34,274 nucleotides of DNA from Chloroflexota bacterium (GTDB lineage Bacteria > Chloroflexota > Anaerolineae > Anaerolineales > UBA4823), in assembly GCA_029265355.1 (NCBI GenBank), contig JAJUJL010000036.1:1-34274 (forward strand), read 5' to 3'. The stretch's first letter is position 1. Every line of letters starts with the position of its first letter. This document shows positions 16,455 through 33,857 of this stretch, piece after piece. The notes below the pieces were generated by a model. The model saw only the letters and a list, made by a program, of their open reading frames with translations, had not been told where the DNA came from and made no database searches. The position numbers were made by a program, and so were the translations under genes.

Positions 16455-18371
16455 TCAAGCTTCTTTCTCAAGGGCTTTTTGGATTTCTGCAAGCAAAGAA
16501 TTCACCAAAACGTTTAATCCAGGATAGAGTCTCCTTTCAACTCCTGCCTTCCTCATAAAAGAAGATTGACTTGGCGTCTCGTTTTGTTGGATAAAGTAAT
16601 CTCTGGCCCAGAGTAATCGCCGAATGGCGAAAGTATCACCAGACTCTATTGATTCATTTAAGGCACCTTTTGTCATGGGTGTTTTGCATAGCTCATTGTA
16701 GAACCAAGGCTTCGCCCCTATTCTTCTCCCAATTTCCGTTTTTGTGATACGAGCTGGTTTCCCAGGTTCGGAACGAATTACATCTGCCACCGCCGGTATC
16801 ATTTTGGACAAGCTCTCATCACGATCCAGCCAGTTAATTTTTACTTGAGAAGATGGTTTTGTTACTGGCACTATGCAGTCCAGCCATTCACGATCAAATT
16901 TTCTAAGATCAACCAAGGCACTTATATCTTTCTCGGCAAGTTGTTTGCGGGTAAGCATAGGATTTTCGCGCAGCATATCAAGAACCCATTTTCGATGAAC
17001 TAAAATCCGCCGCTGACGAACTTCATCAATGCTTTCTTTAGGAATAAATTCAGGACTTACTGGAAGTAGATTCCGGTCTTTCTCGAGCGAAAGGCCCAGG
17101 CGAATGGCATGGTACTTGAGTGTATTTGAATTCGCAATTCCGAGGCTTTTTTTAATTGCATTGATCGAAATTGAGCCATTGTTCCATAATTCTCGGAACT
17201 TCTCATCCCAGACTTTGCCGTATACAACTACCCGATCATAAACATAACAGCTATCTTCGGCCCGGTCTACTGCCCAACGTCGGTAAGCAAACCCGCATTC
17301 ACATTGGAATTCCGCCCTGGGTCTATTTTTGATGTAGTAGACCTGGCAATCGGTAATTATCGGTTGTCTATAATGAGTGCAAGTCCGGTTCAAACAAGGC
17401 CAGGGGCCGTCACCGAAAGGGTGACGCTCGTCTGGTAAAGTAAAAAGCTGACTGGCGCTCTCGCCTAAAAACTGGATCAACAGCAAGTGGTACAAAGGGG
17501 AAAAACGCGCTCGGTGGTAATGACTCGTCAAGCGATTAACCCATCTCAAATGCTGTTGAAACTGATCTAAAAATCCACAACCCAAAAAGACGAGTAGCTC
17601 GTGCGAATAATAATCCAAGATATCGCGAGGAAGCTTATCTTGATTCATTCCGCGTTGAGATAAATATCCTTTTTCGCGCAGCGCACCACAATATTTTTGA
17701 AAAAGCCCTTCTGCATCGAGATTGGGCTGGTGGGTCAATATCCAACTTGAATTCTGGCTCAGGCAGAACAGCCGTTGGGCAAATAAGGATGCGTCAATAG
17801 GGCGAGTCTCTAAATGGATATTCTGAATAGCTTCCTCGGCTGTAACAGGCCCTTGAGTAAAATCCCGATGTTTGGCGTAGATGCGACTTTTCTCCAACCA
17901 AACGGCATGTTCAGCGCAAATGTGCACTCCTGGAAGTTGGTGCTGGCGGTGCCAGTAAGTTTCTCCATAAATCTGGCGATCGGTAGCCACGCAGACAGGG
18001 CAATAGCTCAGGTAAGTCGGAACATGTTTTCGGAACTTGGATAACGCTCCCAATACATTTAGCTTGACATGTTCGCCCATAATTTGATCCGTCATTTGAG
18101 CATATATTTCCGCCCTGAGAAAAGGACGGTAATAGGGAAGGAAAGAGTGGTTTTGGATAATATCGACAGCGGTCATTGGGCTTCCAGGCGGAAAATGACT
18201 GATAAAAAAAGCCAAACGGCGGGGTACATCCACGGCCATTCGATTGATCTCTTCTCCGAATAAATCCCTGCCGAATGCTGTTTTGCAGGGGTACTTCATC
18301 CGCTCTGCATAGCGATAGCAAAGGCTATTGAAGGTTTCGTCTGGGTAAAGAATTGGGAACCAACCAATCAT
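16455..18371 (-). CDS. tnsD: TnsD/TniQ-family target-selection protein, 638 aa
   Basis: A TniQ-domain protein of the long TnsD type that recognises the insertion site and recruits TnsC. The N-terminal WFPILYPDETFNSLCYRYAER is the usual TniQ opening. The first zinc finger has C124 and C127 (YCPVCV) with C152 and H155 (ICAEH). A second Cys cluster (C326, C331, C357, C359; CLNRTC and CECG) is typical of TnsD. The C-terminal ~270 residues contain helix-turn-helix-like stretches (ISINAIKKSLGIANSNTLKYHAIRLG and ITKTEIGRRIGAKPWFY) suited to DNA recognition. The length is much greater than the ~400-aa TniQ of CRISPR-associated transposons, which supports protein-guided targeting. It overlaps the tnsC stop by four bases (ATGA). 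Confidence 0.93.
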   Translation of the reverse strand: MIGWFPILYPDETFNSLCYRYAERMKYPCKTAFGRDLFGEEINRMAVDVPRRLAFFISHFPPGSPMTAVDIIQNHSFLPYYRPFLRAEIYAQMTDQIMGEHVKLNVLGALSKFRKHVPTYLSYCPVCVATDRQIYGETYWHRQHQLPGVHICAEHAVWLEKSRIYAKHRDFTQGPVTAEEAIQNIHLETRPIDASLFAQRLFCLSQNSSWILTHQPNLDAEGLFQKYCGALREKGYLSQRGMNQDKLPRDILDYYSHELLVFLGCGFLDQFQQHLRWVNRLTSHYHRARFSPLYHLLLIQFLGESASQLFTLPDERHPFGDGPWPCLNRTCTHYRQPIITDCQVYYIKNRPRAEFQCECGFAYRRWAVDRAEDSCYVYDRVVVYGKVWDEKFRELWNNGSISINAIKKSLGIANSNTLKYHAIRLGLSLEKDRNLLPVSPEFIPKESIDEVRQRRILVHRKWVLDMLRENPMLTRKQLAEKDISALVDLRKFDREWLDCIVPVTKPSSQVKINWLDRDESLSKMIPAVADVIRSEPGKPARITKTEIGRRIGAKPWFYNELCKTPMTKGALNESIESGDTFAIRRLLWARDYFIQQNETPSQSSFMRKAGVERRLYPGLNVLVNSLLAEIQKALEKEA

Positions 18372-19912
18372 GATGACACCTCTGGGTTAAAAAACTGCAA
18401 AGCAGATTTAACGCAGCCTGCTTTCTGGAATGCCTGGTATCTGGTCAAATTCTGACTATCCCTTTGATCACCCAATCTCCGCAAATCACCTTCAGGCAAG
18501 GCAACTTCAGTTCTGGTTTTCACCTTCTTCTTCGCAAGGTTGGTTGCTTTGGATTGATCGGGGGAATTTATCTCACTTTCAACCGGCGCGATTTGAGAAG
18601 ATTCCAGGATTGACGCGGATTTTCCAGGTTGCTCTGGTTGGCGTTTGGTCTTGTGCATTGCTCTCGGGTTTTGTTGATATTGAGTATCCAAATTTACCAT
18701 TTGAATATCGGGAACCATCTTGAGTTTTTGCCAGTCGTGAGTGCGTAAGGCATCCAAAACATCTTGTGCAAAGCAAAAACTATCCAGGGCTACAGAGCGG
18801 ATCATTTCAGGAGTGATAGCTTCGATCCCGGTGGCAATGGCGCGCATTTGAGCCAACAAATAAGCCTTCACAGCAAAGTCTGTAATACCCTGGCTGACTT
18901 CGTAAAGGGCATTTGACAGTTGCGGAGTTAGTGAGGTTGGTTGACGCAAATATTGATAGCGCCAGAGCATTTCTACAAACATTTGCCAGACTTCGTCTGG
19001 GTGCATCCTGTCCCATGTGAAATCGCCTTGACCGCTGGCTCGGCGGGCCTGGCGGAACTCACTGGTTAGTAAAGGCAGTGCTTTGTATGTTCCCACCAGC
19101 ACAACGGGCATTCCCATGGTATTGACCAATTGCACGAAAAAGTTGAGCATGCGGCTTATCCCGGCGCTTTTGGCAACGGACAGATGCTGAATCTCGTCAA
19201 TAACCAGGCAGCCTATCCCGTGTAAAGCAGTTAGACGTTTCATATGGCCAAGCATTTCATCTGTGGAAGCCTGCCCGTTGCGCGAATAGTTTGGGTAGTA
19301 ATGAGTTTCCAGAATCTCATCCAATTCCTGGAAGAAATTGATGCACAATCCCTTGATTGAACCATCAAAAGGGCAATCCAACTTCATCCAAACAACTTGA
19401 ACAAAGTTAAAATTGGATTCGCCATAACAATGATGAACAATCACTTGGGGATACAAGCGGAGAATAGCTTCAACTGCTGTACTTTTACCAATCCCGCTGA
19501 TACCCACCAGGTTGAATCCGGTTGCGGTTGATTGCAAACGAGGAAGAGTAGAACCAGTTTGTAAGCGTTGGTCTGTTTCTCGCCAATAGCTCCGAGTGAT
19601 GGGATTGCGAGCTAAATAACCAGCCCGCAACATGCGCGAAAAGCGCTGTTCTAAATCGAGATGAATCCAGTTAGGCTTGAAAAATTGGTTTGCGTTGTAG
19701 ATCAAGTGCATACGTATCTCAGGCGGGAGTTCCCGCTCGTATTCATTGTATTCAGGATAGTGGGCCAGGCGTTGGTAAGCCTCTTCCGGCGAGAATATCT
19801 TTGGCAGGGCTTCAATCAGGGGATTCCCGCGATAGATTGGAACAAAAGGGTCTTGATAATTGGCCTGCTCCAATTGCCCTCTTACCACACGCGGCGCATA
19901 GAAATCACTCAT
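18368..19912 (-). CDS. tnsC: TnsC-type AAA+ transposition regulator, 514 aa
   Basis: The ATPase that links target recognition (TnsD) to the transposase (TnsAB). Walker A GISGIGKST is at residues 137-145, and Walker B CLVIDEIQHL has D239 and E240. A sensor-like VVLVGTYKALPLL follows. The N-terminal ~130 residues resemble the TnsC region that contacts partner proteins. The C-terminal ~130 residues (about 385-514) are polar and low-complexity, then end in a conserved-looking short tail. The start codon overlaps the tnsB stop in ATGAGTGA, indicating translational coupling. The length is close to Tn7 TnsC (555 aa) and longer than Tn5053 TniB, consistent with the Tn7 lineage. Confidence 0.95.
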   Translation of the reverse strand: MSDFYAPRVVRGQLEQANYQDPFVPIYRGNPLIEALPKIFSPEEAYQRLAHYPEYNEYERELPPEIRMHLIYNANQFFKPNWIHLDLEQRFSRMLRAGYLARNPITRSYWRETDQRLQTGSTLPRLQSTATGFNLVGISGIGKSTAVEAILRLYPQVIVHHCYGESNFNFVQVVWMKLDCPFDGSIKGLCINFFQELDEILETHYYPNYSRNGQASTDEMLGHMKRLTALHGIGCLVIDEIQHLSVAKSAGISRMLNFFVQLVNTMGMPVVLVGTYKALPLLTSEFRQARRASGQGDFTWDRMHPDEVWQMFVEMLWRYQYLRQPTSLTPQLSNALYEVSQGITDFAVKAYLLAQMRAIATGIEAITPEMIRSVALDSFCFAQDVLDALRTHDWQKLKMVPDIQMVNLDTQYQQNPRAMHKTKRQPEQPGKSASILESSQIAPVESEINSPDQSKATNLAKKKVKTRTEVALPEGDLRRLGDQRDSQNLTRYQAFQKAGCVKSALQFFNPEVSS

Positions 19913-22082
19913 CTTTCATCATCTCCTTGTCTAACTCACGCAGTAGTTCAATATTACGCGGCGGAGGAATATACCCAACCGGTTGTTCCTGTTTGCTTTG
20001 ATCCATATTGGATGCTGATCCAATCTCCCATGTATTCTTTTGGCGTTCCAAGTCACGTTCGCGGGAACGGTTCTCTCGAATGTCTTTCAATATCTCACTT
20101 TTGCTTTGACCTTTACGTTCGGTTACAGCCGTTTCTTGGGCAGGTTCTACGATATGAGCAATATAGGCATCGAGCGCCGCCTCGGCTTGTTGACGGGCCG
20201 CTCGCCGGGCCGGTTCTTTTTGCCGCTCTATCTCATCCCGATCCAATATCTCATACCAATCATGTCCCCGGAGAGCGCTTTCGTTGGCATGTAATAAGCA
20301 AGGCTCCAATCGTTGGCAATTTGGCAAACGAAGATAGATGGTGTCTAATTGTCGTGGATCGTAAGCTACATTGATTTTCCATCGCCCACTAGCCCTGGCG
20401 CGCACGTACCATTGTTCGCTGGAAGCTCTCTGACAGTCATATTGTCGTCGCCTGAAGATAATCCCTCTTTCAGTTACTGATGCTTCTGCCGTTGGCAAGA
20501 GATTCTGGCGGATGATATCAGCATCGGCTTGACGTAGTTGCCCTACCCGATTCTGCAGCCCCCAATTCCATAAATCCAGCGGATAGGGCTCCACGTGATC
20601 GGCAAGCATAGTTTTATCCATGCGATACTCCTTGAGCTCATGAAATCGGTTGTGAAATAAAAACAAACGGATCATCAGACTACGAAACTGTGACAGGTTC
20701 AGGCAGGCATCCAGGCGATAATCCCGCTTGCCTCTCTCCCGAGGCAAATGAACCGCTCCTGGCATCCAGTGGATTACCTGATCATTCGCCAGGCGAAAAC
20801 TCCGCTCCACAATTGCTTTCCATTCGGCCCTATAGGGTGCTGTATTTGAAATTCCTATTCCTAGACCATTCACTACATAGTCGGCGTTGTATCCTTCCAT
20901 CTCCCCGCGGTCCGCCAGAATTTCTCTGGGAAGGTGTTGGATTGGCCAGTCCTCACTGGAAATGACAATCCCATATTCGGCGCAAAAGGCTTTTTTGTCG
21001 GTTGTGGTATTCTCCAAAGCCAACATTGCACCCAACCAACTGGGCCCTTCCAGGCTGACGCTAAATCCAGCAACCATGTGACTGAAAACATCCACAATGG
21101 TATATAGCACGGGGCGACCAATAATCCGGCCCGGGTCAAGACTTGAAACCAGGTAAATATCGGCAACAGTCGCGTCAATTTGGAAAATCGAACCAGGACC
21201 GAAGGCCATTTGATTAGAATCTCCCAAAATAGCCCGATGACTCAAGTTGAAACGCCGTTCAGTGAAACGTGATATCGCAGTTTGAGTAGGATTAAGGCGG
21301 CCACGTTTGGAATACCAGTATTGAAACTGGCGAAATGTGGGTAGTTCTTCAGCAGGCGGCAAGATTGGGATCAGAACACCTTCTTGTAATTCATATCCCT
21401 GGTTGAAATAGCTCTCTAAGGTTCGTTGATAAGCCTTAGTCAAAGGCATTCTCTGGGGATTCTCGTAAAATTGTTTTACGCCTCGCTGGAATCGCTTTTG
21501 GATGTCTGCGTCAATGACCACGCCACTCGATTCGCCCTTAGCCAGAGCAAGAGCGTTGGGGCGTCCCAATTTGCATACAGCGATCTTCCGCTCTTTGCCT
21601 CTACCTCCACAATTCCTGAAGTCAGGTAGCAATGCGTTTTTCGTCTGACCATATTGCCAGTATTTGCGCAAATAAGTGTAAACAGTTTGCTTGCTTATCC
21701 CATGAAGGTGGGCGCAGGCTGAAACTAGTGGCCCACGCTTCTGGCTCATGAATATGTCCACTTTGGGATATCCTTGTTCATCCATGACCAGGTTCTTGAT
21801 TGCCTCCCATGCCTGATCCCGATGATTGCGATATAACTCCGGCAGGGTTTCGTCTAAACCCCAAAGCCTGGATAGAGGATCCATCTCGATAACTCGAAAA
21901 TCGCCCTTGGATAACAATTGTTCTAACTCGGAAATGGGTTGCCAGATTGGCAGCGCTCGTGGACTGAAGATTTCGATCTTAACCAGACGCCTACCATAAC
22001 TGTCAAGGTAGAGAACGCGTTCTAAACTCTTAGCATCCGTTTGGCTATCGTTTTGAAGGAGCAGATTTACTTGAATGATCAT
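19905..22082 (-). CDS. tnsB: TnsB-type DDE transposase, 725 aa
   Basis: The RNase H-fold transposase that binds the transposon ends and joins 3' ends to target DNA. The catalytic triad is visible as D303 (FQIDATVADIY), D391 (ILADRGEMEGY) and E426 (WKAIVERSFRL). The spacings of 88 and 35 residues are the same as in Tn7 TnsB (D273, D361, E396, from memory). An N-terminal helix-turn-helix region lies near 115-140 (LVSACAHLHGISKQTVYTYLRKY). I use the ATG at 22082, one base after the tnsA stop, with GGAGG inside the tnsA 3' end; a start at 22145 would overlap tnsA by 62 bases. The C-terminal ~150 residues are charged and probably contact TnsC. Confidence 0.96.
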   Translation of the reverse strand: MIIQVNLLLQNDSQTDAKSLERVLYLDSYGRRLVKIEIFSPRALPIWQPISELEQLLSKGDFRVIEMDPLSRLWGLDETLPELYRNHRDQAWEAIKNLVMDEQGYPKVDIFMSQKRGPLVSACAHLHGISKQTVYTYLRKYWQYGQTKNALLPDFRNCGGRGKERKIAVCKLGRPNALALAKGESSGVVIDADIQKRFQRGVKQFYENPQRMPLTKAYQRTLESYFNQGYELQEGVLIPILPPAEELPTFRQFQYWYSKRGRLNPTQTAISRFTERRFNLSHRAILGDSNQMAFGPGSIFQIDATVADIYLVSSLDPGRIIGRPVLYTIVDVFSHMVAGFSVSLEGPSWLGAMLALENTTTDKKAFCAEYGIVISSEDWPIQHLPREILADRGEMEGYNADYVVNGLGIGISNTAPYRAEWKAIVERSFRLANDQVIHWMPGAVHLPRERGKRDYRLDACLNLSQFRSLMIRLFLFHNRFHELKEYRMDKTMLADHVEPYPLDLWNWGLQNRVGQLRQADADIIRQNLLPTAEASVTERGIIFRRRQYDCQRASSEQWYVRARASGRWKINVAYDPRQLDTIYLRLPNCQRLEPCLLHANESALRGHDWYEILDRDEIERQKEPARRAARQQAEAALDAYIAHIVEPAQETAVTERKGQSKSEILKDIRENRSRERDLERQKNTWEIGSASNMDQSKQEQPVGYIPPPRNIELLRELDKEMMKDE

Positions 22083-22083
22083 G

Positions 22084-22893
22084 CTATACCTCCAAAGCTT
22101 GCAATGTGAGTGGTTTTCCTGGATCGAGCGGGATTTGCCAGTCAATTTGCCACTGCCTGATGGCTATTAAATGATAAGCTACCGCTAGGCTGGTTCCCTG
22201 GGCAAAGCCAAGATGCCGATCGCAATCGAGCCCAAGCGTTCTCAAGATAATCGCTTGCTGTTTTGCTTGCTCGGACAGGTAGTTCGTAATACTCTCGATT
22301 TCACCATTTTGTAATTGGTATTCGTTCAGTTCCAGATAATTGCGCAGAAGGCGACAATTCTGTATCAAAGCCGATGGCATTTCTTTTTCGGTGATGATGC
22401 CCCAATCGACCTGGCGACTTTGCCAATAGCGACGCTCTATCTCAAGTTTTTCAATCGTCCGTTTGGATTCCAGGTCTTGACTGTACTTAAGAGTTCTGGA
22501 CACTTCCTCTTGTTTACCATCCCGAAGGCAAGTAATGGCGAAATCTGTCGTCATAACAACCGATTCCTGACTTTTGGGGTGCGTGGGATGGCGCACATCA
22601 CAAGCCTTTGCTATTGTTTGGGTTTCTTCAAGTGGCAGAAGGGGAAATTGTTCGCGGATATCGATCACACCGGGAGAAAACTCCAATAAACAGAAGAAGT
22701 CAGTCTCCAATTTGCTGAGCAGATGGTGTACCCGCTTCGTCTTGTGTCCCAAGATGCGGCTTGCCAGTCCCTGTGACGCCACATCTTGCACAGTGAGCCA
22801 GGGCTGGTAATCTGCGCCCTTACCCTGACCTTTGCCGGATTTGATCCGCTCATCGATTTTAGTGAAATGGTTTGTACGGTCTCGTTTTGCCAT
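22084..22893 (-). CDS. tnsA: TnsA endonuclease subunit, 269 aa
   Basis: The restriction-enzyme-like nuclease that cuts the 5' strands at the transposon ends, so that TnsA plus TnsB give cut-and-paste movement. The expected active-site residues are present: E63 (SKLETDFF), D117 (VMTTDFAI) and K136 (SRTLKYSQD), in the same order as E63/D114/K132 of Tn7 TnsA (from memory). The C-terminal half corresponds to the winged-helix TnsA_C region. AGGAG lies 8 bases before the ATG. Its promoter must lie in the ~94 bases up to the right terminus, overlapping the TnsB sites, so repression by bound TnsB is likely. First gene of the tnsABCD operon. Confidence 0.95.
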   Translation of the reverse strand: MAKRDRTNHFTKIDERIKSGKGQGKGADYQPWLTVQDVASQGLASRILGHKTKRVHHLLSKLETDFFCLLEFSPGVIDIREQFPLLPLEETQTIAKACDVRHPTHPKSQESVVMTTDFAITCLRDGKQEEVSRTLKYSQDLESKRTIEKLEIERRYWQSRQVDWGIITEKEMPSALIQNCRLLRNYLELNEYQLQNGEIESITNYLSEQAKQQAIILRTLGLDCDRHLGFAQGTSLAVAYHLIAIRQWQIDWQIPLDPGKPLTLQALEV

Positions 22894-25331: not shown

Positions 25332-25817
25332 TCAGCGCCGGATCAGCGGCAAGTACTGGTGATATTCACCCACCGGGCAGGCAATTAAGCCTGTGCTGCC
25401 CAGCACGTAGGGACCGGGATCGAGCGTATCTTGCCCGATCAGGGTGAGGGTGTAGGAATCGCCGCAGTTGGCGGCAAAATCCTTTGCCACCGGCGAGGGG
25501 CTGTAGGTGCTGCCGGAGAGAGGCGCCGGGTTGGAGAGATCCGGGCGAAAATCGTAGAGCAACCCCTGGGCGCCGGTGCTGGTGCGCGTGGCGTACAATT
25601 GAAAGGACGCCAGCTTTGACCCGGTCGCCAGGTTGAGGGTGAATGGCTCGAGGTGAATGCTGCAGCGGTCAGGTTCTGCCCGGTAGCAGCCAGCCTGGAT
25701 CGGGCTGGCATAGATACTGACCGCCGCCCGGCTGGCTGGCAGGTGGATGCTGGACTGCGCCAGCAGGAGCAGGGCTGCGGCTAGCAGTCCCAGGATGAAG
25801 ATTCTTTTGAGGCTCAT
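25332..25817 (-). CDS. Small secreted protein with C-terminal LPLIRR tail, 161 aa
   Basis: The signal peptide (FILGLLAAALLLLAQSS) precedes a mature domain of about 125 residues starting AAVSIYASPIQAGCYRAEPDRCSIHLEPFTLNLATGSKL. Four or more Cys could pair outside the cell. The last residues, YHQYLPLIRR, match the terminal '(Y/F)LPL(I/V)' tail frequent on Chloroflexota secreted proteins. ATG 25817 follows AGGAAGG closely. It is a clear paralog of the next gene upstream (shared ASPIQxGCY, DFxPDLSNP, SGSTYxPS, FAAxCG and LIGQD), arising by tandem duplication, and is last in a cluster of four same-strand genes, 24 bases after its paralog. Function unknown. Confidence 0.8.
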   Translation of the reverse strand: MSLKRIFILGLLAAALLLLAQSSIHLPASRAAVSIYASPIQAGCYRAEPDRCSIHLEPFTLNLATGSKLASFQLYATRTSTGAQGLLYDFRPDLSNPAPLSGSTYSPSPVAKDFAANCGDSYTLTLIGQDTLDPGPYVLGSTGLIACPVGEYHQYLPLIRR

Positions 25818-25841
25818 GTCGCCTTCCTGCAAGCCTGCCAG

Positions 25842-26303
25842 CTAAGGCACGCCAGCGGGACAGGTGAAATCGCCGGTTCCGCCCAGCACAAATGGGTTGG
25901 CATCGCCGCTATCCTGGCCGATCAACCAGAGTGCGTAGGTTTTTCCACACGTTGCGGCAAAATCCTGGGTGACCAGCGAGGGCGCATAGGTGCTGCCGGA
26001 GAAAGGCACGGGATTGGATAAATCAGGCTTGAAGTCATAGATCACCGACAAATTCCCACCGCTGGGTTGGGCCAGCAATTGGAAGGAGACCAGTTTTGTG
26101 CCGGTGGCCAGGTAGATGGTGAACGGGTCGACGTGCAGGCGGCAGTCGTTGGGAGCAGCGATGTAGCAGCCGCCCTGGATGGGGCTGGCGAAGATCTGGG
26201 TGGCGGCTGAGGCGCGCTGGGGACGCAGCAAGGCTGGCAGGGCGACCAGGCCAGCGGAAAGCAAACACAGCAATACGGCGGACAAAAATAGTTGTTTGCG
26301 CAT
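25842..26303 (-). CDS. Small secreted protein, paralog of the following gene, 153 aa
   Basis: The signal peptide (LFLSAVLLCLLSAGLVALPALL) is followed by TQIFASPIQGGCYIAAPNDCRLHVDPFTIYLATGTKLVSF and the same DFKPDLSNPVPFSGSTYAPS and FAATCGKTYALWLIGQD motifs as its neighbour. It ends at CPAGVP and lacks the YLPLIRR tail, so the two copies may be released and retained forms of one protein; that is inference. AAAGGAA lies 6 bases before ATG 26303. The gap to the upstream NTPase-winged-helix gene is only 21 bases, which suggests co-transcription with the regulatory pair. Confidence 0.8.
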   Translation of the reverse strand: MRKQLFLSAVLLCLLSAGLVALPALLRPQRASAATQIFASPIQGGCYIAAPNDCRLHVDPFTIYLATGTKLVSFQLLAQPSGGNLSVIYDFKPDLSNPVPFSGSTYAPSLVTQDFAATCGKTYALWLIGQDSGDANPFVLGGTGDFTCPAGVP

Positions 26304-26324
26304 CGTGTATTCCTTTTTTATCAT

Positions 26325-27659
26325 TTAATCGGCCACGACAAAGCGGTAGCCTCGGCCGCGCTCGTTCTGAATCGAGGCGGCGATGGAGGGCGAAGCTGCC
26401 AGCGCCAGGCGCACGCGGTGCACGGCGGCTTCCACGGCGCGCTTGCTGGGCTGCTCGCCAGCCCACACCTGGGCTTTCAACTCCTCGAAAGTGACCAGCT
26501 CCCCGCGGCGGGAGACCAGGTAGTCGAGCAGTTGTCGGTCGCGCGCCGAAAGCTCGGACTGGAGTCTTTCCAGGTGCAGGTGCACACCCCGGGGATTTTG
26601 ATCGCGGATGAACAGGCGAAACAGCTCGCAAAACACGCGGTAGCGCTGCTCATCCAGGCGATAAACCAGCAGCCCGCTCTGCACCAGCTCCTGGAGGGCG
26701 TCTTCGGGCGCTTCAGTGGGCTGATCGAGGGCGGCGTGCAGCAGGGTGTGTTGGGCGCGCTCGTCCAGGTGGTTCCAGATCACCTGGAAGGTGTCCTGCA
26801 CGGCTGGCAGGCGCGCCAGTTGCGCCAGCAGCGTGTCTTTGACCTCCGGCCTGGCAAGCAGCTCACCCAGCTCTGGATAATCCTGGCGCAGGTTGAAGAG
26901 GTATTCGCAGGCCAGGTTGAGCAGGGCGGTGTGTCCGCCGGCAGCTTCCAAGAGGAAAGCGATTTCGCCCGGGCTGAACTCGAAACCGCTGGGCAGCGGA
27001 TCTGTGATGAACTGCGTTGCCTCGCGCTCGGAGAGCATGCCCAGCGAGCGCTTGACCAGGATGTTTTGCAGCGGCGAGTAGCGCTCTGGATCGGAGAAGA
27101 GGGCAGAGAGCTTCTTCTCGGTGAACAGCACCAGGGCGTGGCGCGTTGCCAGGCTGCGCAGAAAGGTCTCGTCTTCGTAGGTGAAGGTCTCGTAGGCGTG
27201 GTCGAAATGATCCATCACCAGCACCAGGCGGGCAGAGCGGGCCTCCAGCGCCTGGCCGATCTCATCCAGGTTTTCCTTGGCCTTGGCCAGGTCGCCCACT
27301 GGCGGAGGCGCCCCAGGCAGCAGGGCTTTCAAGCGCGGCTCCTGGCGCAGGTGGTTGGGCAGCTCCTGGAGCACCTCGGCGCCTGTCTTGCGGTAGCAGT
27401 CCACGTAGATGGGGAAGAGCTGCTCGCGGGTGTAGGATTCCAGGTCTTCGGGAAATTGCTGCAGGGCGCCTTCGGGATGGCACAGGAAGCGCGCCAGGTT
27501 GGATTTGCCGATCGTTTTCACCCCGCTGATGCTGAAGGAGCGCGGCGTTTCAGCGCTGATGCCGTGCAGGATGGCGGAAATCACCGCCCGCCGCCCGTAG
27601 AAACCCTGCGGCGCGGTGGATACCAGGAGTTGTGTGTAGGGGTTGGCGAGCTGATTCAT
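26325..27659 (-). CDS. P-loop NTPase fused to OmpR-type winged helix, 444 aa
   Basis: The N-terminal NPYTQ...GFYGRRAVISAIL (about 7-31) is the entry motif of AAA/STAND-like ATPases. Walker A GVKTIGKSN is at 46-54, and Walker B RLVLVMDHFDH has D150. A helical region (about 230-340) includes a winged-helix-like segment. The last ~95 residues (LSARDRQLLDYLVSRRGELVTFEELKAQVW ... VEAAVHRVRLAL ... RGRGYRFV) are an OmpR/PhoB-type transcriptional activation domain. It is therefore probably an NTP-gated transcription regulator. The ATG overlaps the stop of the RSH-like gene (ATGA), with GAGGAGG upstream, so the two are translationally coupled. It shares the NPY...F.GR ATPase type with the C-terminus of that protein. 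Confidence 0.85.
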   Translation of the reverse strand: MNQLANPYTQLLVSTAPQGFYGRRAVISAILHGISAETPRSFSISGVKTIGKSNLARFLCHPEGALQQFPEDLESYTREQLFPIYVDCYRKTGAEVLQELPNHLRQEPRLKALLPGAPPPVGDLAKAKENLDEIGQALEARSARLVLVMDHFDHAYETFTYEDETFLRSLATRHALVLFTEKKLSALFSDPERYSPLQNILVKRSLGMLSEREATQFITDPLPSGFEFSPGEIAFLLEAAGGHTALLNLACEYLFNLRQDYPELGELLARPEVKDTLLAQLARLPAVQDTFQVIWNHLDERAQHTLLHAALDQPTEAPEDALQELVQSGLLVYRLDEQRYRVFCELFRLFIRDQNPRGVHLHLERLQSELSARDRQLLDYLVSRRGELVTFEELKAQVWAGEQPSKRAVEAAVHRVRLALAASPSIAASIQNERGRGYRFVVAD

Positions 27660-30600
27660 GGTTTCCTCCTCACGGGGCTGGGGGATGCTGCCAGGGCGGG
27701 CGCGCCCGGGTAGGTGTGGGCAAACCACTGCGAGAAAAGCGGCACGCGGATGGCGTAGCGTGGCGAGCGGGCGTCTGGCTGCAAGCCGACCGCGCCGATA
27801 TCCACCAGGGTGGACAGCGCTTCGATCAGGCCGCTGCGCTTGACCTCGCTGTAGCCCATGGCTTGCAGGCGCTGGGTGATCTCGCCCAGCTCCAGCCAGG
27901 TGGTGGCTTGCTGGGCGGCTTGCGCCAGGGCGCTCATCACATCGCGGCGGAAGCCGTGGTTTTCCCGCAGGAATTGATGGAAGTGGTGGGAGCCATTGGC
28001 GAGCAGGTTGGGCAGCACGGCCTCCAGGTCGCTGAGATCGAGGTGGCGCTTCTCCTGTTCGCTGGCCCGGCTCACCAGGTCGAGCAGCAGGGTTTGCAGG
28101 TAATAGGGGTGGCAGGCGGTCAGAGCCAGCATGCGCTGGATGAGAGTCTCGTCGAAGCGCAGTTCGCCGCCCATCGGCTCCTCGATCAGCTTGCGAGCGT
28201 CGCTGGGGGTGAAGTAATCCAGCGCCACGGGCGCCGCCAGGCGCAGCAGCGAGCCCAGGGTGAGCTGCGCCCCGTGTATCTGGATGCGCCTGTAGAGCGC
28301 TTCCTGCATGGTGAAGATGCACTGCAGCGGGCTGCGCTCTTCCACCAACGACTTGAGCTGGGCGATGACCGCTGCGGCGGCGTGGCGGTCTTTCCACAGT
28401 TCTTCCAGCAGGTTGATCTCGTCGAAGAGCAGCACCAGGCGCAGTTTGCTCAGCTCCTCAGCGTTCTGCTCGCGCCACAGGTTGAAAGCCTCGTAGGGTG
28501 AAATGTCGTTGCGCTGCAGGTGGCGCGCCATCCGGCGGCTGAAAAGGGGCGAGGCCTCCAGGGTGTGATAAATCTCGCGGTTGACGTTTTGCCAGAAGCC
28601 GTGCTCGCTGTGCTGCGCCAGGCGCTGCAGGTCGATCAGCGCTGGCGTGAAGCTGCGCGCCGGCAGCGCCACGCGCCGCAGGTAGCGCAGCAGGGAAGTC
28701 TTGCCCACCCGGCTGATGCCGTAGACCACCACCGCGCCGCGGGTGTTTTCCAGGGCGCTGACGATGGCGCCGATTTCCGCCACGCGCCCCTTGAAGACGC
28801 GCGGGTCATCCACCGCGCTGGGGCCGTAGGGATTGGACAGCTCGTCGGGTCGGGAGAGCAGCAACTTGTCCAGCGGAGAGAGCGGATCCAACTGCACGTG
28901 GTCCAGCCGGCCGTTGGCTTTCATCTCGTTCAGCCGGTCTTCCAGCAGGTGCACGGTTTGGATGTCGCGCGAATTGACCGTGAACTGGAGCAAGGCTCTG
29001 TGCTCGCGGTCCACGCTGGCGTCCACGCCCAGCAGGTACAGGCCTTGCTGGTGCAGCGGGTAGATTTCATCCAGGATATCGCGCAGCAGGCCCAGGCGGT
29101 CGACCGCCTGGACGGTGACGCGCACGGGCTCACCGGCGCGCCGGTCGCCGATCCAGATCAAGGGGATGGGAGCCTCGCGGGGAGCGCTGGGGCAGCGCGT
29201 GGAATAGACCACCAACCGCGAGGTGGGCTTGCCGGGGTTATCCAGGCGCCCGACGATGGGCTCGCCGGGTTTGAGGCGTTCGGGGCAGCCCTTGTGCTGG
29301 CACTGCGTGAAGCGCACGCGCTCGGGCGGCGCGCCCAGCGGTTTGGCGTCGGCGCGGGCGATGTGGTTGGCGAGCTTGTTGAAGATCAAGTGGGCGACGA
29401 TCTTGCTGGCAGAGATGGGGCGTTTGCCTTCCACCGCGCCCGGGCGGGCGATATCCAGGTACATGGCGTCCAGCGAGAGATAGCCGTACAGCCTGGCGGC
29501 GGAATGCAGGTGGCTCTCGATGTCCTGCGGGCTGATCTTGCCCTCGAGCTGGTAGGCTTTCAGCTCGCGCTCCAGCAGATTGTCGATGATCTGGCGCCCC
29601 TTGGGCGGCTGTTTGCGGCGCAGTGCGACGGCGATGGCTTTTTTGGCGGTGCTGGTTTTGACGATCTGCTTCCAGGCTTCTTCCGGTCCAGGCCAGTCGG
29701 GGTCGACCTCGATCTGCACCAGGTCGCCATTGCGCAAGACGTGGTCGGGCGCGACCGCCTGGCCGTTGATCCAGACGCGGGTGCAATGGTTGCCCACCTC
29801 GCTGTGCACCTTGTAAGCATAGTCGATGGGGGTGCTGCCAGCCGGCAAACCCCGGTAAACTTTGCCGGCCGGGCTAAAGACATACACTTCAGGGCTTTCA
29901 CTCTCGGGCGGGTAATCGAGCAGCCATTGGCGCAGGGCGAGATCATCCCACCACACGTGAGGCAGAGGCTGGGTCGGCTGCTGATCGTAGGCCAGGTACA
30001 GGATGCCCTGCATGGCCGCCTGGTACATCTGGCGGGTGAAGATGCGGAATTCGAGCACCAGGGGCGGCTCGCCTGGCTCTGGATTGTCCAAATGCAGGTT
30101 GGTGATCAGCGCCTGGTAGCCGTTGAACTTGGGGCTGGCGATCAAGTCGCGGAAGGTGGTGCCCTCGGGTGTGCGCCCGTGCACCGGCTGCCAGGTGTTG
30201 TGCAGCAGCCCCAGGGCGCGGTAGCAGGCGTCCACGCTGTCCACCAGCACATCGAATTTGAGCTTGCGCAGCAGTTGGCTGAGCGATTCGCCGCTCTGCA
30301 CACGGCGGTACAGGCTGGAGTTGACGCTCAGGTGCTCTTTCACTTCTCCGGAGATGCCGGCGTATTTGAGCAGGTCGGCCACTTTGTGCGCCACCTCGCG
30401 CCGGTAAGTTGCTTGGCGGGTTTCGGCGGCGGTGCGCTGTTGGTTGATCTTATCCCACAGGCGACCGGGGTTGAGCTGCTGCAGGCACAGGTTGCCCATC
30501 TTGCGGCGCAGCTCCCACATGCCGAACAGCTCCAACAGCGGCAGGAAGATGGCGCGGTTGTCCTCGCACAGCAGCCGCGCTGCGCCGCGATCCAGGCTGG

Positions 30601-31033
30601 CGAGCGATTCCATCTGCACCAGGTGCGAAAGCAGCGCCAGGAGCGCCGTCTCGCGGTCGGTGTAAGCCAGGTAGTACAGGCGGCGCAGCTTGCGGGCGCG
30701 CAGTGCCCGGCGCATGTCCTCGGGCAGGCTGCCGCGCGCCGCGCGTTGCTCGAGCAGCAGCAGCCGCTCAGCGCGCTGGTGCACCTCCTCCGGGAATTGC
30801 GGCGGGGCGTCGCCGCTCTTGAGCAGGTCGAGGCGCGCCAGGTTCAGCGCGGGTATGGTTTGCAGCGCCGCCAGCGGCAAGCGCCAGTTAGCCGCCATGC
30901 GCAGCTCGGCTTCCATGCGCTCCTGGGCGGCGCGCCGGTTTCCCAGGCGGCTGGCAGCCTGCTGCATCTGCAGGCTGAGCACCGCCAGGTCGGGTTTCTG
31001 CAAGTATTCGATCCAGGAGGTGGCGTGCAACAT
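27656..31033 (-). CDS. Long RelA/SpoT-like protein with degenerate catalytic domains fused to a P-loop NTPase, 1125 aa
   Basis: Domain order: pseudo-HD region (about 90-200; EDNRAIFLPLLELFGMWELRRKM matches the RSH helix after the HD site, but no HD pair is seen); synthetase-like domain (235-350; CYRALGLLHNTWQPV, FRDLIASPKFNGYQALIT); TGS (382-445; GSTPIDYAYKVHSEVGNHC); helical part; zinc-finger-like part (575-618; C578, C583, C614); ACT (636-705). A P-loop NTPase follows, with FKGR at 747-750, Walker A GISRVGKTS at 772-780, and Walker B LLFDEINLL with D871 and E872, then a winged-helix-like end. Against SpoT recalled from memory, the Mg-binding Asp is R256, the EVQIRT Gln is R330 and the SLHT His is I310, so (p)ppGpp synthesis is unlikely. 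ATG 31033 is preferred over GTG 31039. Confidence 0.85.
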   Translation of the reverse strand: MLHATSWIEYLQKPDLAVLSLQMQQAASRLGNRRAAQERMEAELRMAANWRLPLAALQTIPALNLARLDLLKSGDAPPQFPEEVHQRAERLLLLEQRAARGSLPEDMRRALRARKLRRLYYLAYTDRETALLALLSHLVQMESLASLDRGAARLLCEDNRAIFLPLLELFGMWELRRKMGNLCLQQLNPGRLWDKINQQRTAAETRQATYRREVAHKVADLLKYAGISGEVKEHLSVNSSLYRRVQSGESLSQLLRKLKFDVLVDSVDACYRALGLLHNTWQPVHGRTPEGTTFRDLIASPKFNGYQALITNLHLDNPEPGEPPLVLEFRIFTRQMYQAAMQGILYLAYDQQPTQPLPHVWWDDLALRQWLLDYPPESESPEVYVFSPAGKVYRGLPAGSTPIDYAYKVHSEVGNHCTRVWINGQAVAPDHVLRNGDLVQIEVDPDWPGPEEAWKQIVKTSTAKKAIAVALRRKQPPKGRQIIDNLLERELKAYQLEGKISPQDIESHLHSAARLYGYLSLDAMYLDIARPGAVEGKRPISASKIVAHLIFNKLANHIARADAKPLGAPPERVRFTQCQHKGCPERLKPGEPIVGRLDNPGKPTSRLVVYSTRCPSAPREAPIPLIWIGDRRAGEPVRVTVQAVDRLGLLRDILDEIYPLHQQGLYLLGVDASVDREHRALLQFTVNSRDIQTVHLLEDRLNEMKANGRLDHVQLDPLSPLDKLLLSRPDELSNPYGPSAVDDPRVFKGRVAEIGAIVSALENTRGAVVVYGISRVGKTSLLRYLRRVALPARSFTPALIDLQRLAQHSEHGFWQNVNREIYHTLEASPLFSRRMARHLQRNDISPYEAFNLWREQNAEELSKLRLVLLFDEINLLEELWKDRHAAAAVIAQLKSLVEERSPLQCIFTMQEALYRRIQIHGAQLTLGSLLRLAAPVALDYFTPSDARKLIEEPMGGELRFDETLIQRMLALTACHPYYLQTLLLDLVSRASEQEKRHLDLSDLEAVLPNLLANGSHHFHQFLRENHGFRRDVMSALAQAAQQATTWLELGEITQRLQAMGYSEVKRSGLIEALSTLVDIGAVGLQPDARSPRYAIRVPLFSQWFAHTYPGAPALAASPSPVRRKP

Positions 31034-31043
31034 GGTCACCCTA

Positions 31044-31121: not shown

Positions 31122-31160
31122 TTGAGTAGTATTTGAGTAACTACGGTAATATTGAAGTAA
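31122..31160. promoter_or_regulatory. Direct repeats TTGAGTA at 10-11 bp, candidate OmpR-type operator
   Basis: TTGAGTA at 31122-31128 and 31133-31139, the weaker ACGGTAA at 31143-31149, and TTGAAGTA at 31152-31159 follow each other at roughly helical-turn spacing, just downstream of the -10. OmpR/PhoB-type winged helices bind direct repeats at this spacing, and one such protein is encoded nearby (26325-27659). From 31161 to 31238 I see nothing further. Confidence 0.5.
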
Positions 31161-31250
31161 GATGTAGCTCGTCATCGAACGAAGTCCGGCGCAACGATGA
31201 AGCCTGCACAGCGGCTGTCGAGCAGGGTGAGTGTGACCAAGGAGGTTAGA

Positions 31251-32696
31251 ATGGCCGACATACACGAAATACGCAGGGCATTGAGGCTCCCGCTGCTGGT
31301 ATCGACCTTGAACGGCGCGGCGGGGCGCTGGGAGCCGGTTTTCTCCTTCGGCGAGATCGTATCCGAGCCGCGCCTGGTGACGGTCGGGCCGCTGGGCGCC
31401 ACGCTGCAGGTGCCGGACCGCCACGTTGCGATCTTGACCGGCAAGATGGGGACTTTCCTCCTGTCGCAGGGTTATCACTACCTGGACCTGCCGATGGACG
31501 CCTACACGGCGCGCTGCGTGCAGATGTTCCAGCAGCAGACGCGCTTGCCGCCGGTGGTGGAGTACACCCAGGACGGCCTGGAAGCGTCCCTGAAGGTGCG
31601 CCTGAGCTGGCGGGTGATCGATCCGCTGGCGGTGCGGGACAAACCCGCCTTTCACCAACTGCTGCACGAGGCCTGCACCGCCACGATCGCTAACTTTATC
31701 CGCTCGCAGCCTTACGCCCGGTTGGTGCAATCGCACGGCGCTCCGCCGGCGATGGCGCTGGTTGAGATCGCCGGCGCGCTGCGGCTCAGCCTGCCGCGCA
31801 ACCGCATCTTCAACGGCCTGACGCTGCTGGACGTGATCGTCGATCCGCCCCAGGGGGTGCGCGAGCTGCAGGAGAGCGCCCAGCACGCCCGGGTGGAGGC
31901 CAGCCTGCTGGCAACCGAAGAGCAGCTCCTGGCGCGGCGCACCTTGCTGGAGACGCGCAAAGCGCGCGCCCAGCGCCTGGTGCTGGAGCAGCAGCAGCGC
32001 AACCGCCTGGTGGAAAGCGAGATGGATGTGCGGGTGGCGCGCCAGCGCCGCCCAATCCTCGACCAGGAGCTGGAGTACCAGGAGCGGCGCAACCAGGTCG
32101 AGCTGCGCGCCGAGAGCGGGCGGCTGGTGCTGGAAGCCCGCAAAGAGGTGCTGCTACGCCTGGCGGACACGCTGACCAACTCGCTGATGACGCCCAACCT
32201 GATGGGGCAGGTGGGCGGGATGAGCAGCGGCGTGGTGGCCGAGATGGTGCGCTCGGTGCTGGACGGGCTGCACCCCTCCATGCTGGCGCCTGGGGAGGGC
32301 AGCGCCGGACCGTCTGTCGAGGCCAACCCGCTCATCCTGCGCCTGGTGCGCGAGATCGCCGAGGCCGAGCTGCGCTTGCCGGGTATGGAGTGGCAGCACA
32401 TGCAGGCGCAACCCGGCGGCGAGAAGCTGGTGCAGTTCGCCTACCGCGGCTGGATCATCAAGCTCTTCGTCAACGAGGAGTACCCACGCCAGGGGCCGCG
32501 CGTCTTCATGCACCGCAGCAGCGCTCGCAACCCGGTGGAGAGCAAAGCCAACACTTTCCGACCAACCTGGAACACGCGCAAGCGGTTGGTGGACTTGCTG
32601 GCTTACCTGGCCAACTACATTGACCATCCCTCGGGCAAAGCGAGGCGCCCCGGAGACGAAGACCCTTTTGAGGCGCCGCCGACTTATGCAGGATAG
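31251..32696 (+). CDS. SPFH/band-7 coiled-coil protein with E2-like C-terminal domain, 481 aa
   Basis: AAGGAGG lies 5 bases before ATG 31251. Residues about 40-205 look like an SPFH/PHB (band 7) domain (VPDRHVAILTGKMGTFLLSQGYHYLDLPMD, DGLEASLKVRLSWRVIDP, FHQLLHEACTATIANFI). A long charged coiled coil follows (about 205-305). There is no N-terminal membrane anchor, so it is cytosolic or peripheral. Residues about 360-460 (LILRLVREIAEAELRLPGMEW, GWIIKLFVNEEYPRQGPRVFM, RPTWNTRKRLVDLLAYLANYI) follow the order of a ubiquitin-conjugating E2 fold, including the 'YP..GP.V' turn. No Cys is present in this region, so it would be UEV-like. The SPFH call is fairly firm; the E2 likeness is by eye. The next gene starts 3 bases after its stop. 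Confidence 0.72.
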   Translation: MADIHEIRRALRLPLLVSTLNGAAGRWEPVFSFGEIVSEPRLVTVGPLGATLQVPDRHVAILTGKMGTFLLSQGYHYLDLPMDAYTARCVQMFQQQTRLPPVVEYTQDGLEASLKVRLSWRVIDPLAVRDKPAFHQLLHEACTATIANFIRSQPYARLVQSHGAPPAMALVEIAGALRLSLPRNRIFNGLTLLDVIVDPPQGVRELQESAQHARVEASLLATEEQLLARRTLLETRKARAQRLVLEQQQRNRLVESEMDVRVARQRRPILDQELEYQERRNQVELRAESGRLVLEARKEVLLRLADTLTNSLMTPNLMGQVGGMSSGVVAEMVRSVLDGLHPSMLAPGEGSAGPSVEANPLILRLVREIAEAELRLPGMEWQHMQAQPGGEKLVQFAYRGWIIKLFVNEEYPRQGPRVFMHRSSARNPVESKANTFRPTWNTRKRLVDLLAYLANYIDHPSGKARRPGDEDPFEAPPTYAG

Positions 32697-32699
32697 ACG

Positions 32700-33857
32700 A
32701 TGAACCTTGAGATGACACCCTGGATCGAGCTGAGCCCGCCGCCGCGCGCTGCGGGGGGAAATCGCCCACCGGAGAGGGCGGCGCTGGCCTGGCGGGCTCA
32801 GGTGGCACTGCGGGTGTGGCCCAGGCCATTCCCAGAGCGGGAAACGCACAAGTGGGGTTGGAACGCGGGCGCTCTGCTGGACGAAGCCCTGGACCGCCAG
32901 CGGCTGTTCTTGTCTGGGCTGCACCCGCGCAGCCTGCATGCCCTGGGCGCGCCGGGGGCGTACACGCGCAGCGTGTGCCTGCGCTGCGTGGCTCGCCCGG
33001 CGGTGGGCAGCCTGAGCCTGGCTGTGCTGGGGGCGGTGAGCGCCGAGGACGAGGCTTCCGCCCGCCGCCTGGCGCAGGATTTTGCCCGCGAGCTGGCGGC
33101 GCTGCTGCCCTACGACTACGGCGTCTCGCTGGCCACCACGGCGGAGCAATTCCGGCGGGCGGCGGGCTGGGACGTGCTGGCAGATTGCGCCCACCCGGGC
33201 GGGATCAGCGAGATCGGGCGCGAGGAAAGCGCCCTGGCTTCGCCGGAGGGACGCATGCCGCTGCTGGGGCAGTGGCAGTGGAGCCGTTTTGCGAACGAAC
33301 ACATCTGGCGCGCCCTGTCCGCCAGCCCGACGCCGCTGCTGTGGAGCGTTTACCTGCAACCCACGCTGGCGGCGGAGGCGGAGCTGAAGCAGTGGGCGCG
33401 CTTGCAGGAGATGGCCCGCCAGGCGGCTGAGCAGGCGGAGGAAGTGGGCAGCGCCGCGCCGGTGGTGATGGAGGCCGAGCGCGCCCTGGAGCTGTATCGC
33501 GCCCACCGCCAGAGCTTGAGCAGCCCCTACCTGCTGCAGGTGCACCTGGCTTCCTCGCAGGTGGTGCCGGAGTTCGTCGAGCGGGCGGTGGGCAGCGCCC
33601 TGACCTTCACCGAGGGGCCGAACCCTGCCGGGCCGGGCTACAGCCTGTACCGCACCAGCGACCCGGCCTGCCTGGAAGCCTGGCGCAGCGGGATGCTGCG
33701 GTTGGAGCCAGCGGCGCTGCTGCCGGGCAACGGCAACGGCTACCAGCGCCTGCGCCTGCTGGCGGGGCTGCGCGAGGCCAGCGCGGTCTTTCGCCTGCCG
33801 TTCCCGCACAACCCGGGCTGGCCGGGGGTGCGCTTCGAGCAAACGCACGACGCCTGA
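32700..33857 (+). CDS. Uncharacterised protein resembling the pre-ATPase region of HerA/DUF87 proteins, 385 aa
   Basis: It starts 3 bases after the SPFH gene, so the two are co-expressed. No signal peptide, membrane span or P-loop is present. The layout (EDEASARRLAQDFARELAALLPYDYGVSLATTAEQFRRAAGW, FANEHIWRALSASPTPLLWSVYLQP, then a helical region ELKQWARLQEMARQAAEQAEE, then PYLLQVHLASSQVVPEFVERAVGSALT) ends in EASAVFRLPFPHNPGWPGVRFEQ. That last segment resembles the 'AxxLFRLP...PG' passage seen just before the ATPase core of HerA/DUF87-type proteins. The protein stops there. It may be a stand-alone partner of a separately encoded ATPase lying beyond the window, or a truncated gene. Similarity is judged by eye. 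Confidence 0.65.
   Translation: MNLEMTPWIELSPPPRAAGGNRPPERAALAWRAQVALRVWPRPFPERETHKWGWNAGALLDEALDRQRLFLSGLHPRSLHALGAPGAYTRSVCLRCVARPAVGSLSLAVLGAVSAEDEASARRLAQDFARELAALLPYDYGVSLATTAEQFRRAAGWDVLADCAHPGGISEIGREESALASPEGRMPLLGQWQWSRFANEHIWRALSASPTPLLWSVYLQPTLAAEAELKQWARLQEMARQAAEQAEEVGSAAPVVMEAERALELYRAHRQSLSSPYLLQVHLASSQVVPEFVERAVGSALTFTEGPNPAGPGYSLYRTSDPACLEAWRSGMLRLEPAALLPGNGNGYQRLRLLAGLREASAVFRLPFPHNPGWPGVRFEQTHDA

Follow-up and report, generated by a model that had tools for sequence, protein, structure and literature searches.

What is a stringent-response protein for if its sequence suggests that it can neither make nor break the alarmone? The question is raised by a locus in a Chloroflexota bacterium (assembly GCA_029265355.1, contig JAJUJL010000036.1, positions 1 to 34,274 of the forward strand; this whole stretch of 34,274 nucleotides is called the window here). 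Long RelA/SpoT homologues (RSH) are enzymes with (p)ppGpp as their output. Gene A of the window encodes a protein of this build that runs on, in frame, into a P-loop NTPase, and gene B, which overlaps its end, encodes an NTPase with a DNA-binding domain and gives the likely output of the system. The reading favored here, at a probability of roughly one half, is that protein A is a noncatalytic RSH sensor feeding a two-NTPase relay that leads to transcription.

Architecture of gene A and recurrence of the fusion

From its N terminus, protein A comprises pseudo-HD, pseudo-synthetase, TGS, helical, zinc-finger-like, and ACT-like regions, an in-frame P-loop NTPase, and a winged-helix-like end. The features of genes A and B are as follows.

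27656..31039, minus strand: gene A, the RSH-NTPase fusion, 1,127 amino acids in one open frame from a GTG; likely start an ATG at 31033
30440..31039, minus strand: pseudo-HD region, residues 1-200; fold match to the Rel N-terminal region
29984..30439, minus strand: pseudo-synthetase region, residues 201-352; Pfam RelA_SpoT, site alignment, and fold
29699..29893, minus strand: TGS domain, residues 383-447; Pfam E 1.3e-15, fold rmsd (root mean square deviation) 0.8
29804..29806, minus strand: His412, the equivalent of E. coli RelA His432; kept in 17/17 fusions
29360..29698, minus strand: alpha-helical (AH) region, residues 448-560; alignment and model secondary structure
29150..29317, minus strand: zinc-finger (RIS/ZFD)-like region; C580, C584, and C616 present, spacing changed, His ligand a Tyr in the window member
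28868..29140, minus strand: ACT/RRM-like domain, residues 634-724; ferredoxin-like fold matches including the M. tuberculosis Rel ACT domain, Pfam ACT_4 E 0.24
27950..28834, minus strand: P-loop NTPase (AAA_22/AAA_16/ATPase_2), residues ~736-1030; Pfam and a weak fold match
28694..28720, minus strand: Walker A motif GISRVGKTS, residues 774-782; G774, R777, and G779-S782 invariant in a 16-row alignment
28418..28423, minus strand: Walker B residues D873/E874; invariant in the 16-row alignment
27704..27949, minus strand: winged-helix-like C-terminal region, residues ~1031-1112; helices and a strand pair in a model of moderate confidence, no accepted family match
26325..27659, minus strand: gene B, 444 amino acids, an NTPase plus an OmpR/PhoB-type winged helix-turn-helix (wHTH); 4-bp ATGA overlap with gene A, ribosome-binding site GAGGAGG
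26340..26555, minus strand: Trans_reg_C winged helix of gene B, residues 369-440; Pfam E 2.4e-13, Foldseek matches to SaeR/PhoB DNA-binding domains

Residue numbers count from the GTG at 31039; those of a first-pass annotation, made from the sequence alone, count from the ATG at 31033 and are 2 lower. The coordinates that it gave for the gene, 27656-31033, are right, the frame extending two codons upstream of the ATG to the GTG, and the FKGR (749-752), Walker A (774-782), and Walker B (D873/E874) motifs that it listed are present. It also described RSH domains in canonical order plus an NTPase in one frame, which Pfam, phmmer, and the model folds bear out. Above their cut-offs, Pfam finds TGS (385-443, E 1.3e-15), RelA_SpoT (255-346, E 3.3e-7), and AAA_22 (766-918, E 3.9e-7) in protein A; ACT_4 leaves a trace only (E 0.24), and there is no Pfam match to an HD family in the window protein, the N-terminal region being recognized by fold. 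Among PDB sequences, phmmer aligns residues 101-509 with B. subtilis Rel (6yxa, E 7.2e-41), and ribosome-bound RelA (5iqr and 5kps) is alignable up to residue 706. A structure model, for which the window protein and nine relatives were the input, is of moderate confidence only (mean predicted local distance difference test [pLDDT] score 63.9). The structural match to RSH domains that the annotation's claim presupposed is found in it: B. subtilis Rel 8acu is matched by residues 1-350 (Z 31.5, rmsd 2.6 over 322), and 3hvz by the TGS domain at residues 383-447 (Z 10.4, rmsd 0.8 over 64). Residues 638-723 resemble the M. tuberculosis Rel ACT domain (Z 10.4), a score that unrelated ferredoxin-like folds equal there. 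Because of the PDB sequence matches and these superpositions, the pseudo-HD/pseudo-synthetase part and the TGS domain are, as modeled, genuine RSH-type folds and no chance likeness. The HD-SYNTH-TGS-AH-ZFD-ACT order and fold of a long RSH is found in protein A.

What kind of NTPase follows? Foldseek gives the protein A model a weak Cdc6/Orc1-type match (1fnn, E 8.6e-5, TM score 0.28). Both the Walker A motif and the acidic Walker B motif of STAND NTPases are found in the 16-row alignment, in which P978 is also invariant, lying within an HP(Y/F) stretch that may correspond to the GxP-like motif of STAND NTPases. Against curated STAND families, the window protein scores below the cut-off for nSTAND6 (E 0.014), AAA_22 alone being above; at E 0.01, 4 of 16 fusions match nSTAND1 and 2 match nSTAND2. 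A VIA-align row placing a wheat resistosome on residues 941-1115 (Z 10.2 over 164) scores close to what helical parts give as background, and no weight is put on it.

Could the fusion be an assembly artifact that joins two separate genes? This is ruled out because the same layout recurs in 18 genomes, and further fusions lie on three named contigs (L090, L092, and L093). The window protein was searched against 101 relatives, the first homologue against 396 genomes of the class, and a profile of 11 rows against 400 genomes of the phylum. The fusion is present in at least 18 genomes (among 829, G000-G828) of nine tool-labeled families in at least two classes of Chloroflexota, one of the genomes (G704) being outside the class; such counts are lower bounds, since the class and phylum searches scored at most two candidates per genome. 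Some of the 18 carry damaged copies: the fusion gene of G337 (L061:8215-11472) is broken by an in-frame TAG, sister genomes having intact copies; another copy is spread over two contigs (L068/L069), and a third lacks its N terminus at a contig end (L075). Among 16 fusions scanned, TGS, AAA_16, and AAA_22 are matched in 16/16, RelA_SpoT in 15/16, and HD_4 in 14/16 but not in the window member. Its closest relative, L074, is 37% identical over residues 42-1106. When named genomes were scanned with a profile of one subgroup's NTPase part, which is biased toward that subgroup, 13 loci were returned, all labeled Chloroflexi, Anaerolineae, or Ardenticatenaceae; a named-genome scan with the window protein alone gave no match. 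L097, cut off by a contig end, starts only within the NTPase and is therefore uninformative about a fusion. In the L088-L092 group, five of six rows (the sixth is cut; ~60 bp aligned) have a conserved promoter-like TGGACA ... TATACT within the called start of the open reading frame (ORF) of A, and because of its position the true start of A in this group is probably a later ATG.

Can the RSH half still act as an enzyme? Sites were tabulated for the 13-14 fusions having the region and for 29 ordinary Rels of relatives; residue numbers follow Rel_Seq. Synthetase residues K243, D264, and R269 are kept in 0/13 fusions and S310 and Q325 in 0/14, versus 29/29 ordinary Rels each. The synthetase glutamate E323 is kept in 1/14, namely, the window protein, and H312 is absent in 8/14. 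On the hydrolase side, E81 is kept in 0/13 and D82 in 1/13, and the window protein has all of the H53, H77, D78, E81, D82, and D144 positions altered. Neither an intact synthetase site (G-loop, Mg-binding Asp, and EVQIRT) nor an intact hydrolase site (H53, HDxxED, and D144) is found in the fusions, and their RSH half is, judged from sequence, catalytically dead, with a dead synthetase and a broken hydrolase ED motif. The synthetase had been called degenerate from the window alone; across homologues, five positions invariant in the 29 Rels are kept by no fusion. Individual substitutions noted at that stage were read correctly as well, with Gln to Arg in EVQIRT and His to Ile in SLHT confirmed by the alignments; the Mg-site Asp is Arg in the phmmer alignment, and MAFFT puts a Lys one column over, with no acid either way. 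Among the residues that persist are the equivalent of Y308, the guanine-stacking residue of the synthetase (14/14), and N306 (12/14); Y319/D309 (E. coli numbers) are unchanged in all fusions, and H77 and D78 are both retained in 9/13, outside the window protein's own branch.

The reading half, the partner gene, and related NTPase pairs

If catalysis has been lost, what has been kept? With E. coli RelA as the ruler and 17 fusions compared, the TGS residues H432 and P411 are each present in 17/17. In the zinc finger, C612, C613, and C638 are likewise found in 17/17 each (a separate 14-row alignment has C613 in 13/14, the window being the exception), and H634 is found in 16/17, all except the window member. 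In the part of PMC4974054 available, RelA H432 intercalates between tRNA C74 and C75, and P411 and K412 interact with A76; in the available part of PMC7058999, uncharged tRNA fails to activate RelA H432E, and ribosome-dependent toxicity is countered by C612A C613A and by R629E, with activation not fully abolished. The near-invariant Rel residues that are never altered in the fusions number 10/32 in TGS, 4/23 in AH, 4/25 in ZFD, 1/15 in ACT, 5/68 in SYNTH, and 2/78 in HD. Fisher tests, which take alignment columns as independent, which they are not, give p 7.5e-5 for TGS versus HD plus SYNTH (10/32 versus 7/146) and p 5e-4 for TGS versus all others. The ratio of nonsynonymous to synonymous substitution rates is 0.04-0.27 in every domain, dead ones included (five close, overlapping pairs from one subgroup); the dead domains therefore seem to be kept for something.

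Gene A does not travel alone. At 15 loci (of the 18 genomes plus L093), a partner B lies downstream of A on the same strand with a gap of -55 to +65 bp. The N terminus of the partner is visible by eye before the contig ends at L067 and L073, and L074 has a match to its first 100 residues beyond the end of A; L070 is uninformative, only 24 bp of contig being left after A. Trans_reg_C is present in 14/14 partners scanned, and none of these 14 matches a receiver domain family at E 0.01, AAA families being found instead. Protein B of the window matches AAA_16 (Pfam E 2.6e-9), and its model (pLDDT 65.4) gives a weak Orc1/Cdc6 match in Foldseek (2qby, E 1.2e-4, TM score 0.29) and, at the C terminus, good matches to SaeR/PhoB DNA-binding domains. 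Distances among the A NTPases correlate with those among the partners (r 0.98 over 12 pairs; Mantel p 0.0005, the minimum for 2,000 permutations).

The window NTPase also matches proteins without an RSH part in related genomes, and 14 such loci were fetched. At 11 of them the product of the adjoining gene is another NTPase, which carries either a Ser/Thr kinase domain or Trans_reg_C; of the others, L041 has an nSTAND2 protein with no matched output, L035 has a P0002-like protein, and at L048 none was found. Eleven sensor-side proteins were scanned; six have GAF (one weakly), one of those six has HAMP, and in that of L041 the NTPase is N-terminal and tetratricopeptide repeats follow. The RSH fusion looks like one choice of sensor among pairs of a sensor-NTPase and an NTPase-output protein. 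One locus carries a three-gene set (L039:2734-11609) of NTPase-Trans_reg_C, sensor-NTPase (weak GAF), and NTPase-kinase, which suggests that one sensor may feed two outputs.

How do the fusions relate to ordinary Rels? Another RSH gene is present in 18/18 fusion genomes, at least 41% identical to the window genome's Rel in 17/18; in G328 (assembly 83% complete) only a 34% one was seen. The window genome's own ordinary Rel is on another contig. Five genomes of family f49 (G337, G346, G434, G451, and G481) have, in addition to a closer Rel and the fusion, one more long RSH paralogue, which shares 32-35% identity with the Rel of the window genome. A quick tree with 56 rows, two of them identical, separates 17 fusions from 38 ordinary Rels by a branch with support 76, and support rises to 97 when the free-standing RSH L059 is grouped with the fusions. 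The separation from ordinary Rels, and with it a single origin, is provisional, given long-branch warnings. L059 itself (L059:1417-3510, family f64), a neighbor of the fusions in the tree, by eye keeps the HD motif and has degenerate synthetase motifs and no CC zinc-finger motif.

A candidate route from translation to transcription

How might such a protein work? Protein A would be a stringent-factor pseudoenzyme by which no (p)ppGpp is made or broken. Its reading half (TGS, helical, zinc-finger-like, and ACT-like) would most likely bind uncharged tRNA on stalled ribosomes, or sense a related state of translation, and would pass that state to the fused STAND/ORC-like NTPase as a change of nucleotide state. 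The NTPase of A would then act on protein B, and B would turn genes on or off, as their constant pairing and domain content suggest. The result would be a route from starvation to transcription that bypasses (p)ppGpp, and a parallel one, because the cell keeps another RSH gene. A broader form of the proposal is more tentative: a (p)ppGpp-free second stringent response, in which uncharged tRNA on stalled ribosomes is recognized by a dead RSH that signals via two paired NTPases directly to a DNA-binding domain, as one case of a so far undescribed Chloroflexota class of sensor-NTPase/NTPase-output systems with exchangeable sensors (RSH, GAF, and HAMP) and outputs (Ser/Thr kinase and OmpR-type wHTH), laid out like two-component systems but with NTPases as their building blocks. 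The first-pass annotation had proposed a catalytically dead RSH sensor reused to control an NTPase. What stands of this is a real, recurrent fusion with an RSH part that is dead by its residues and with conserved TGS residues (H432/P411) and zinc-finger cysteines; what it lacked was the constant partner gene and the related NTPase pairs.

Several observations weigh against the relay. The TGS histidine is also present in other TGS proteins and may be kept for structure. Only TGS clearly stands out in the alignments, because mean retention is 63% there, 48-53% in AH, ZFD, and ACT, and 45-47% in HD and SYNTH, so that AH, ZFD, and ACT appear hardly above the dead HD and SYNTH. Residues found through H432 and P411 to fit the tRNA CCA end coexist with a K412 kept in just 2/17 fusions; R629 is kept in 1/16 and D637 in 9/17, and the window member's zinc finger has His changed to Tyr and altered cysteine spacing. 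Because of these counts and the RelA literature, the grip on the tRNA end is, as far as residues can tell, largely retained and the ribosome contacts partly altered. Both models are of moderate confidence (pLDDT 63.9 for A and 65.4 for B). The correlation of A and B distances is no more than r 0.53 among the 49 comparisons of greatest distance, and such tracking is a sign of co-inheritance, not of contact; contact between A and B is suggested only by their pairing. Finally, a scan for a candidate B site, as repeats spaced 10-12 bp upstream of 15 fusion genes, gave shuffle shares of 0.02-1.0 (lowest 0.02 and 0.04; window 0.23), with short upstream sequence at L071 (5 bp) and L086 (80 bp).

What else could protein A be? 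The strongest rival, in our view unlikely, makes it a receptor: its pseudo-active sites would bind guanine nucleotides, either (p)ppGpp or GDP/GTP from the ordinary Rel, and the TGS half would only hold A together or at the ribosome. The persistence of the Y308 equivalent, N306, and Y319/D309, the H77-D78 pair of the 9/13 fusions outside the window branch, and purifying selection that extends to HD and SYNTH in the pairs tested all fit such a receptor. Set against it are the loss of K243 (in the G-loop), Q325, and S310 in all fusions and of H312 in 8/14, the loss of every HD metal position examined in the window member, and the concentration of never-changing residues in TGS. That A instead still synthesizes or breaks down an alarmone through a modified reaction is hardly credible; the catalytic-region fold is kept (Z 31.5) and the window member retains the synthetase Glu (1/14), but five synthetase positions and HD E81 are kept by no fusion.

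Two further explanations look beyond nucleotides. In one, the dead RSH part would form mixed dimers with the ordinary Rel or compete with it for ribosomes, the NTPase setting the balance. Another RSH gene in every fusion genome is what this regulator of Rel would need; it leaves unexplained the constant DNA-binding partner (14/14) and the sibling pairs with unrelated sensors, and we consider it very improbable. Nor is dominance of a reading half over Rel a given, because in the available part of PMC6719525 the overproduced C-terminal half of E. coli RelA inhibits growth independently of native RelA. The other, a defense or conflict module in which the RSH-like part detects a phage-induced change in translation and the STAND-like NTPases trigger a response, is somewhat less improbable, though still doubtful. 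Such systems often contain STAND-type NTPases, and a 2020 survey names RelA and TGS among the linked domains (PMC7159879, in the part available). Yet protein A has no PADLOC family at E 0.1, protein B has only SspC (E 0.0015-0.0016) with no passing stretch, no repeat superstructure family is among the matches of 16 fusions, and the output is a transcription-factor domain rather than a toxic effector. A viral collection scanned with one subgroup's NTPase profile contained no relative, which likewise gave no support to a phage origin of the fusion.

Should the sensor-relay reading hold, it would show that ribosome or tRNA sensing can be wired directly to transcription, and the fusion would be a natural separation of sensing from catalysis that helps in working out how TGS, ZFD, and ACT pass a signal. 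The NTPase pairs, with their exchangeable sensors and outputs, would form a signaling layout that deserves to be charted across this large phylum, of which little has been studied.

Surroundings and comparison with known systems

What lies around the pair? A Tn7-like transposition set spans window positions 16455-22893 on the minus strand.

16455-18371, minus strand: TnsD/TniQ (TnsD E 7e-69)
18368-19912, minus strand: TnsC/TniB-like
19905-22145, minus strand: TnsB-like (Mu-transpos_C only E 3.7e-4)
22084-22893, minus strand: TnsA

Directly behind gene B, two similar, apparently secreted proteins of ~160 amino acids are encoded on the minus strand (25332-25832 and 25842-26324), with no Pfam match and no relative near other fusions. 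On the other side of gene A, the divergent neighbor (31197-33857, plus strand) has a weak Band_7/SPFH match (E 0.008) and is followed by a 385-amino-acid gene without any match. The divergent intergenic region contains an exact 7-bp direct repeat, TTGAGTA-4-TTGAGTA (31122-31139), with a spacing that resembles a PhoB box; in the repeat scan, the upstream region of the window did not reach significance, and an autoregulatory site for B was dropped as a candidate, shuffles being as good in a share of 0.23 at the window. Apart from A and B themselves, frames shadowing A, and genes for ABC transporters that lie away from the pair in L087, no neighbors (ORFs of at least 120 amino acids, E 1e-6) are common to the window and other loci. 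No RNA families or tRNAs were found in the window.

How does the pair compare with systems already described? The first-pass annotation knew of no RSH-NTPase fusion of this kind, and none, nor such a pair, appears in the literature searched, which excluded preprints and most subscription papers. The NTP-dependent conflict systems (eLife 2020, PMC7159879) are alike in linking RelA-type and TGS domains to NTPase modules; in the part of that paper available, RelA there generates an alarmone, whereas in the fusion it is dead by sequence. No vWA or MoxR family is matched among ten window neighbors scanned. With STAND/ORC-like NTPases (AAA_16, AAA_22, ATPase_2, and nSTAND1/2), protein A shares the Walker A and DE Walker B motifs, invariant in 16 rows, and the weak Cdc6/Orc1 fold match, but it differs in its N-terminal RSH sensor, in the constant second NTPase next door, and in matching no repeat superstructure family. 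Protein B is like OmpR/PhoB response regulators in its Trans_reg_C winged helix and SaeR/PhoB DNA-binding fold, and unlike them in having an NTPase in place of a receiver domain, of which none was matched.

The closest comparison is, of course, with long RSH proteins (Rel, RelA, and SpoT). For Chloroflexi, the 2011 RSH survey (PMC3153485, in the part available) gives Rel[HS] and small hydrolases. Domain order, the N-terminal and TGS folds, the TGS histidine, and the zinc-finger cysteines are all shared, with E 7e-41 to B. subtilis Rel. Unlike these proteins, the fusion is without the synthetase and hydrolase residues, carries ~390 extra residues (the NTPase and the winged-helix-like region), is paired with an NTPase-wHTH gene, and coexists with another RSH gene. 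It is an RSH by descent and by fold, yet it lacks the catalytic sites by which RSH enzymes are defined.

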